A stretch of 64,000 bases of DNA, from the NCBI GenBank assembly GCA_035935655.1, contig DASYWW010000011.1, forward strand, positions 1-64,000. The letters run 5' to 3'. Under the pieces are notes generated by a model that worked only from the letters and a program-made list of their open reading frames with translations, ran no database searches and had not been told where the DNA came from. Shown here in pieces: positions 30,893 through 51,554 of the stretch. The DNA comes from Candidatus Bathyarchaeia archaeon. GTDB taxonomy: Archaea; Thermoproteota; Bathyarchaeia; 40CM-2-53-6. The position numbers and the translations under genes were made by a program. Positions within the stretch are counted from its first letter, which is position 1, and each line of letters begins with the position of its first letter.

Positions 30893-31076
30893 TGGTGCGG
30901 GGGGTGGGATTCGAACCCACGAAGGCCTACGCCACGGGATAGCACACCCGCGTTCTAGCTTAGACATCAATCGTATCGATGTCCTCACCGTATTGGGTCT
31001 TGAGTGTAGCGCGCGCGTGCTAGGCGCGACCCGCCCATCTGGTCAGATACCTTTGACCTGACTCTGGTACCCCCGC
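30893..31076 (-). tRNA. Class II tRNA with intron(s), Leu-like
   Basis: On the minus strand GCGGGGG (31076-31070) pairs with CCCCCGC (30903-30897), followed by A and an encoded CCA (30893). T-arm GTGGG-TTCGAAT-CCCAC is perfect. D-loop AGTCAGGTCAAA and the variable arm preceding the T-arm (GTGGCGTAGGCCTTC) are Leu-like. The 184-nt span is about 95 nt too long, so one or more introns are present; a strong hairpin GACATC...GATGTC lies in the middle. A CTCAAGA loop (anticodon CAA) is visible but I could not close the anticodon stem, so isotype and exact introns are unresolved. Confidence 0.75.
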
Positions 31077-48182: not shown

Positions 48183-49225
48183 TTGGCGCAACAGGCTCCC
48201 TGGAATAGGTCGCTGAAACTGCTCGTCAAAATCGATGATGAGACAGATCCTGCTTTAGGTTGTCCGCCAGAGAAAAGGACGATTGAGCAGCACATTCGGT
48301 TCGGCTTGATCAACCTGGACAAACCCTCAGGTCCATCAAGCCACGAAGTCGTCGCTTGGGTCAAACGTCTCCTGCGGTTGCATCACGCTGGCCACGGCGG
48401 AACTCTAGAGGTCCTCCTTAGGACCGGAGTAATCCAATGGTCACGGGTGTTCTGCCGCTAGCTCTAGAAGACGCTACCAAGACGATTCAGGCATTCCTTC
48501 TGACCGGGAAGGAGTATGTCTGCGTCATGACCCTACACGGCGACGTTGACCAGACCAAAATCCGCGGAGTATTGAACGAGTTTGTTGGCGACATATTCCA
48601 GAAACCGCCTGTGAGGGCCGCGGTCAAGAGAGAAGTCCGGAAAAGAACAATCTACTCTATTGATGATGTGGAGATTGACGGAAGACAAGTTCTCTTCCGA
48701 GTTGCTTGCCAAGCTGGAACCTACATCCGTAAACTGGTCTACGATGTCGGGGAGGTTCTCGAAGTAGGCGCACACATGCGAGAACTCCGAAGAACACGAT
48801 CCGGATCCTTCACGGAACAGGACATTCACTCGCTATATGATGTCCTCAAACTTTCTCAGGCTTCTCCTGACGACAGAGAAGGGATGGTCCGGCAGATCGT
48901 GAGACCAATGGAGGCAGCGTTCGACTATGTTCCACGAATCTACATTCGCGACTCTGCGGTCAGCTCGATATGTCACGGTGCTGACCTCGCTGTTCCCGGA
49001 ATTGTCAAGCTGAGCGAAGGAATCCGTCCTAAGACTTCGATCGCGCTTTTCACGCTCAAAGGAGAACTCGTTGCATTGTCAAGAGCGCTCATGGGTACGG
49101 AGCAGATGATGAAGGACGAACGTGGACTCGCTGCGAAGACCGTGAGGGTGATCATGCCGACTGAGACGTATCCCAAGCTCTGGAAACCGAAGCATAGTCG
49201 TGTCGTGGTAAGCCAGTTCAATTGA
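48183..49225 (+). CDS. cbf5: tRNA/rRNA pseudouridine synthase Cbf5, intron-split
   Basis: Catalytic subunit of H/ACA RNPs. Exon 1 (TTG 48183) reads FGLINLDKPSGPSSHEVVAW and HHAGHGGTL; exon 2 reads VTGVLPLALEDATKTIQAFL, GTYIRKLVYDVGE and ends in a PUA domain (GADLAVPGIVKLSEGI). The expected motif GGTLDPxVTGVLP is broken exactly at the catalytic Asp codon by an out-of-frame 23-nt insert (48409-48431). Removing it restores GGTL-D-P-MVTGVLP. Length after splicing is about 339 aa, normal for Cbf5. Without splicing, exon 1 stops after 92 aa. Confidence 0.93.
48409..48431 (+). other. 23-nt archaeal intron in cbf5 with BHB-like fold
   Basis: Helix CTCT (48403-48406)/GGAG (48426-48429) is flanked by a 3-nt bulge AGA (48407-48409) on the 5' side and TAA (48430-48432) on the 3' side; GGTCC (48410-48414)/GGACC (48421-48425) closes the intron hairpin. 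Cutting after the second base of each bulge joins G408 to A432 and creates GAT, the catalytic Asp. This is the bulge-helix-bulge form cut by the tRNA splicing endonuclease. The outer helix is weak. The junction is ambiguous by one base (48410-48432 gives the same mRNA). Confidence 0.8.
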
Positions 49226-50525: not shown

Positions 50526-50654
50526 GCCGGGATTCCTGAGCCTGGTACAGGGCAGTCCACATCGAGAAACGTGGGCCTAGGCCTGGAAAAATAGGCTCCT
50601 GTCAGCCTGTGGTCCTTACGGGCCGCGTGGGTTCAAATCCCACTCCCGGCGCCA
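50526..50654 (+). tRNA. Class II tRNA candidate with intron, isotype unresolved
   Basis: GCCGGGA (50526-50532) pairs perfectly with TCCCGGC (50644-50650), then G and encoded CCA. T-arm GTGGG-TTCAAAT-CCCAC and D-arm CCTG-AGCCTGGTA-CAGG are good. A long variable arm GTGGTCC-TTAC-GGGCCGC points to Ser or Leu. The gene is about 40 nt longer than a mature class II tRNA, so an intron is implied. A loop ATCGAGA (Ser CGA?) is present, but no complete anticodon stem could be drawn. Confidence 0.6.
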
Positions 50655-51440: not shown

Positions 51441-51554
51441 TGGTGCGGGAGGTGGGATTCGAACCCACGAACCCCTACGGGACAGGCGCCTCAGGCCTGC
51501 GCTTCCACGACCCTTGAACGAAGGGTCTCTTTGACCTGGCTTGGCAACTCCCGC
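51441..51554 (-). tRNA. tRNA-Leu(GAG) with intron in the D-arm
   Basis: Minus strand: acceptor GCGGGAG (51554-51548) with CTCCCGC, A, CCA. Anticodon arm CAGGC-CTGAGGC-GCCTG reads GAG; variable arm GTCCCGTAGGGGTTC; T-arm GTGGG-TTCGAAT-CCCAC. The D-stem 5' strand GCC needs GGC, which appears as G (51529) and GC (51502-51501) separated by 26 nt. That insert (about 51528-51503) contains GACCC...GGGTC and is best read as a non-canonical intron. Removing it gives a normal Leu tRNA of 88 nt including CCA. Confidence 0.88.
51503..51528 (-). other. 26-nt D-arm intron of tRNA-Leu(GAG)
   Basis: Stem GACCC (51527-51523)/GGGTC (51513-51509) with a 9-nt loop. Its ends fall between tRNA positions 23 and 24, inside the D-stem, not at the usual 37/38 site. 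Exact borders may shift by a base or two. Confidence 0.7.

Follow-up and report, generated by a model that had tools for sequence, protein, structure and literature searches.

A non-canonical intron at position 23/24 of tRNA-Leu(GAG), very probably excised by a two-subunit splicing endonuclease, in an intron-rich Bathyarchaeia genome

The window analyzed here, a stretch of 64,000 nucleotides from a Bathyarchaeia genome (G000; 65 contigs totalling 2.5 Mb, with a completeness of 95.8% and a contamination of 4.5%), carries a tRNA-Leu(GAG) gene that is interrupted within its D-stem, two further tRNA genes with predicted introns, and a cbf5 gene that is itself interrupted (Table 1). The tRNA-Leu(GAG) gene lies between a short ORF on one side and a run of ribosomal protein L15, secY and adk on the other, the gene names being read from the ORF translations, and the SecY of the window is 94-97% identical to Bathyarchaeota metagenome proteins, several of which are named for soil-depth samples. 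ARAGORN and Rfam, the latter at its gathering score, reported no tRNA anywhere in the window and missed all three intron-bearing tRNAs.

Table 1. Positions of the tRNA genes and introns of the window and of the two EndA-family genes of the source genome
Feature	Position	Strand	Description or basis
tRNA-Leu(GAG) gene	51554-51444, encoded CCA to 51441	minus	sequence
5′ exon of tRNA-Leu(GAG), positions 1-23	51529-51554	minus	GCGGGAGTTGCCAAGCCAGGTCAAAG; acceptor and D-arm 5′ side
26-nt intron at 23/24	51503-51528	minus	AGACCCTTCGTTCAAGGGTCGTGGAA; top BHB and cloverleaf solution
3′ exon of tRNA-Leu(GAG), positions 24-73	51444-51502	minus	anticodon GAG, 14-nt variable arm; stems
CCA end, genomically encoded	51441-51443	minus	sequence
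cbf5 BHB intron, 23 nt	48409-48431	plus	catalytic Asp codon split G^AT; reading frame and BHB
tRNA-Ser(GGA), two introns	50526-50651	plus	cloverleaf with BHB introns; conserved among relatives
tRNA-Ser(GGA) intron 29/30, 25 nt	50556-50580	plus	
tRNA-Ser(GGA) intron 37/38, 15 nt	50589-50603	plus	
tRNA-Leu(CAA), 181 nt	30896-31076	minus	three predicted introns (14, 24 and 58 nt); cloverleaf solution
EndA alpha, 189 aa	contig C12, L001:1216-1785		catalytic triad and crenarchaeal specificity loop
EndA beta, 173 aa	contig C62, L002:1465-1986	minus	without specificity loop

Read on the minus strand from 51554 to 51441, with slashes at the two intron borders, the gene has the structure GCGGGAG-TT-GCCAAGCCAGGTCAAAG/AGACCCTTCGTTCAAGGGTCGTGGAA/GCG-CAGGC-CTGAGGC-GCCTG-TCCCGTAGGGGTTC-GTGGGTTCGAATCCCAC-CTCCCGC-A-CCA. 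A script that enumerates bulge-helix-bulge (BHB)-type introns and scores the cloverleaf resulting from their removal singled out an intron of 26 nt at 23/24 as clearly the best solution; its excision restores a complete and conserved 85-nt tRNA with anticodon GAG and with fully paired acceptor stem (7/7), D-stem (3/3), anticodon stem (5/5) and T-arm (5/5). No alternative splice register around 23/24 both kept the D-stem intact and reached a comparable BHB geometry, and a self-splicing (group I) reading of the insert was discarded, as 26 nt is far too short. The first-pass annotation had described a 26-nt insert between positions 23 and 24 of an otherwise standard Leu tRNA, and both the cloverleaf search and the intronless orthologues described below bear this out; at the level of DNA, the 23/24 intron is confirmed by sequence comparison as real and conserved.

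The Leu tRNA genes found in the source genome are GAG, CAG, TAG, CAA and a probable TAA, and a second Leu(GAG) gene was not found in it. As only this one Leu(GAG) gene was found, its transcript has to be matured, although, given the fragmentation and contamination of this metagenome assembly, another copy that lacks the intron could have escaped binning.

At the splice site, a 4-bp central helix (UCAA with GUGG, 3/4 pairs with one A-G mismatch) is placed between two 3-nt bulges and continues into an intron-side inner helix of 7 bp (GACCCTT/AAGGGTC), with cuts predicted after the second base of each bulge. The strict hBHBh′ class has outer helices of at least 2 pairs on both sides; the exon-side outer helix here has just 1 bp, and the intron is therefore assigned to the relaxed, HBh′-like class. 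When the composition of the insert was shuffled, a motif in register, with a central helix of at least 3 pairs and an inner helix of at least 5, arose in 0.06% of the shuffles, and in 0.005% with an inner helix of at least 7. BHB-like motifs as such are common by chance in this DNA (168 per 20 kb on one strand), and the motif count was rejected as stand-alone evidence; therefore, we place the weight on the register of the motif and on how the gene compares with its intronless orthologues, the latter being the stronger argument. The mismatch makes this motif weaker than those of other relatives and counts against excision, since most relatives outside the nearest ones have a 4/4 central helix, while loci L008 and L094 have 2/4 pairs. 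A mismatched central helix is known at the experimentally fixed splice site of Sulfolobus tokodaii tRNA-Met (PMC4307357).

Comparison across the class places the insert at 23/24 in all 13 of the other same-family genomes that give an intact GAG gene, 12 from the same genus and one from a second genus. Additionally, two genomes that belong to a second family within this order, G057 (L205) and G014 (L204), have a 20-21-nt insert at 23/24. Among the insert carriers the exons are near-identical, and the intron loops vary in length (21-31 nt) and in sequence. Outside the order, many GAG orthologues of other Bathyarchaeia families (L103-L106, L108, L110, L111 and L114-L117) are intronless and 85 nt long, and share the identical junction TCAAAGGCG, apart from a T in place of the last C region in L110; their 5′ parts are near-identical to the 5′ exon except in the acceptor. 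The inner helix changes in pairs, from GACCC/GGGTC to AGCCC/GGGCT in the second genus and to GGGCC/GGCCC in the second family (G057), and a switch from U-G to U-A is seen among relatives at the first central pair; these paired changes argue that both helices have been kept.

The same comparison bears on two other explanations. The insert folds into its own hairpin in the precursor and the D-stem could still pair around it, so that the insert might stay in the mature tRNA as an additional hairpin that lengthens the D-stem. However, the intronless orthologues share the same junction, the exon-intron pairing stands in BHB register with a compensatory change, the splicing enzymes are encoded in the genome, and most other tRNA genes of G000 have BHB-geometry inserts too; we regard retention as extremely unlikely. 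That Leu(GAG) is a dead pseudogene with a random insertion has even less to commend it and seems next to impossible, because the exons are near-identical in 14 family genomes while the intron loop diverges, and this sole Leu(GAG) gene found in G000 keeps every stem intact, even though the gene body is lost in one relative (G106) and a second, 5′-truncated copy exists in G070. Excision of the insert as an intron is thus the reading followed here.

Leu(GAG) genes of the order differ in other respects as well. In two further families, the intron register, as read by hand, is compatible with the usual 37/38 site. Some relatives have a second intron at 7/8 (L010, L011, L014, L015 and L016), a position that is also interrupted in L149, the Leu(CAG) gene of G121; these tRNA-Leu 7/8 introns are 15-31 nt long with a 4/4 central helix, and the 15-nt one of L016 is almost without an intron-side helix. 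In G014 (L204), a further insert lies between the variable arm and the T-arm, besides that at 23/24. Of the G106 gene (L003/L158), just the acceptor 5′ strand and a 3′ part (GCGGGAGTTG-TCCCG...) are left, through deletion of the body or assembly collapse, and the extra Leu(GAG)-like 3′ part in G070 (contig C37, L206), with T33 changed to C and without a recognizable 5′ half, is either a truncated copy or a half gene.

A broad-specificity, two-subunit endonuclease had been predicted in the first-pass annotation, with a genome search for catalytic and structural EndA subunits as the way to check it. Such a search found two separate tRNA_int_endo (EndA-family) genes in G000, alpha on C12 and beta on C62. 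The best solved relative of alpha is the Aeropyrum pernix EndA (E 1.7e-41, match over its length), and in the alignment with this enzyme and that of Methanocaldococcus jannaschii the Tyr/His/Lys triad of alpha is intact (DFAVY, IDHAPF and VRKQF). Alpha also has the specificity loop, in which its K42 and K44 align with K44 and R46 of A. pernix; the basic residues of this loop are conserved in crenarchaeal enzymes and were proposed to orient the RNA (PMC12397907). The loop occurs in alpha sequences across the class, with the first Lys replaced by Arg in a few (L126 and L147), and is absent in the alignment from beta and from the M. jannaschii enzyme. Beta lacks conserved catalytic Tyr and His residues: the His is absent in 25/25 aligned beta sequences and the Tyr is not conserved.

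With the triad and loop on alpha, and with beta lacking the loop and a conserved Tyr and His, an (alpha-beta)2 enzyme is predicted, in support of the earlier expectation. Relaxed motifs at non-canonical sites have been associated with (alpha-beta)2 enzymes (PMC4090602, PMC4033280). The A. pernix EndA, an (alpha-beta)2 enzyme (PDB 3p1z/3ajv), resembles that of Bathyarchaeia in its alpha length (186-189 aa), triad and crenarchaea-specific loop, in which the Lys and the basic residue align; the quaternary structure and activity of the Bathyarchaeia counterpart are predicted from its genes. It could be argued that a homomeric endonuclease makes the cut and that the second EndA-like gene has another role, as the Korarchaeum alpha-2 enzyme bears the same loop alongside non-canonical introns (PMC4033280) and the loop is located on the alpha subunit here. 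We consider this very unlikely, since most genomes of the class have two EndA-family matches, one alpha and one beta, and since beta lacks the conserved Tyr and His in the manner of structural subunits.

RtcB is present in G000 as well. Its match on C11:125223-128030 (minus strand) comes in two pieces about 490 residues apart within one 1006-aa open frame, an arrangement suggestive of an intein in this ligase.

Based on the gene anatomy, its conservation, the intronless orthologues and the alpha, beta and RtcB genes observed here, we propose that the insert is, with high probability, a non-canonical archaeal tRNA intron that is cut by a heterotetrameric EndA and whose exons are joined by RtcB. 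First, the exon UCAA, directly before the bulge AG^A, would pair in the pre-tRNA with the intron end, beside the intron hairpin, and this fold would present a relaxed bulge-helix-bulge motif without an exon-side outer helix. Alpha and beta are predicted to assemble into an (alpha-beta)2 tetramer, which we infer to cleave pre-tRNA-Leu(GAG) after the second base of each bulge. Upon cleavage, RtcB would perform the ligation of positions 23 and 24, by which the D-stem would be restored and the intron lost.

The cbf5 intron, which had been cited together with that of Leu(GAG) in the earlier annotation, proved to be real by frame restoration and by its BHB helices: its removal joins GHGGTL-DPMVTGVLP in one frame, the central helix is paired at 4/4 positions and the inner helix has 6 bp. 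All Bathyarchaeia loci in which this position could be located are interrupted there as well, and the intron is presumed to be a substrate of the same splicing machinery. A BHB intron that separates the first base of the catalytic Asp codon from the second, at exactly this place, is also described for crenarchaeal cbf5, in a study whose species table, in the part consulted, does not include Bathyarchaeia (PMC2738675). Among the papers searched, none reports the cbf5 intron in Bathyarchaeota, which is weak evidence of novelty.

The interruption of Leu(GAG) is not an isolated case in its genome. By an approximate script parse, one or more introns are predicted in 31 of the 33 archaeal-type tRNA genes parsed in G000. 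When cloverleaf rules were applied strictly and with the fewest introns, 22 genes were resolved with 40 introns, namely about 1.8 per gene, and only Arg(GCG) and Leu(CAG) were left intron-free; this tally was made by hand without two bacterial-looking genes, and as the script is heuristic, the counts are approximate. The genes that stayed poorly resolved include Leu(TAA), Asp and Ser(CGA). For Leu(CAA), the three-intron solution (D-stem 3/3, anticodon stem 5/5) is clearly ahead of the next one; for both this gene and Trp, the two-intron solutions that the script chose automatically had poor stems, and three-intron solutions were preferred. The two genes left out form a bacterial-looking tRNA-Ile/tRNA-Ala pair on a 5-kb contig (C19), which is likely contamination in the bin.

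This pattern resembles the multi-intron tRNA sets of Thermoproteales, in which most genes are interrupted, often two or three times and at many sites. In Pyrobaculum calidifontis, 46 genes hold 71 introns, and the Thermoproteales mean is 0.84 per gene (PMC8450103), compared with the strict count of 40 in 22 genes, and approximately 31 of 33 resolved genes interrupted, in G000. A plain Rfam tRNA scan of G030, from the same genus, gave mostly long or low-scoring matches, whereas G039 and G143, from two other families, gave mainly normal-length matches, indicating that Bathyarchaeia of those families, unlike G000, have mostly uninterrupted-length tRNA genes. Therefore, judged from these genomes, the high tRNA intron load is probably a trait of this lineage.

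Non-canonical D-arm introns are already known, and cDNA together with EndA cleavage has verified those of A. pernix tRNA-Thr(UGU) and S. tokodaii tRNA-Glu (PMC4307357). The intron reported here resembles these crenarchaeal D-arm introns in being short, in its relaxed BHB motif and in its association with an (alpha-beta)2 EndA (PMC4307357, PMC4090602). However, theirs lie at sites such as 20/21, 22/23 and 25/26, and 23/24 is not named in the review's open-ended ('etc.') list; moreover, the tRNA is Leu(GAG) and the host a soil Bathyarchaeia, not a thermoproteal archaeon. The Leu(GAG) 23/24 intron thus adds one site and one lineage, and its value lies in the setting, in which the signature of a broad-specificity endonuclease occurs together with introns in nearly every resolved tRNA gene. 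It also cautions that in genomes so rich in introns, general tRNA callers can miss nearly all tRNAs.

In conclusion, we lean towards the view that the tRNA gene set of this lineage ranks among the densest in introns of all organisms, that this density arose after the split from other Bathyarchaeia, and that the cbf5 Asp-codon intron is old and common to Bathyarchaeia and Crenarchaeota. If this is true, the proliferation of tRNA introns extends beyond the hyperthermophilic Thermoproteales. As other Bathyarchaeia have a similar EndA but mostly uninterrupted-length tRNAs, possession of the enzyme appears separable from the accumulation of introns, and this contrast between enzyme and intron load among Bathyarchaeia would serve as a natural experiment on the spread of such introns.
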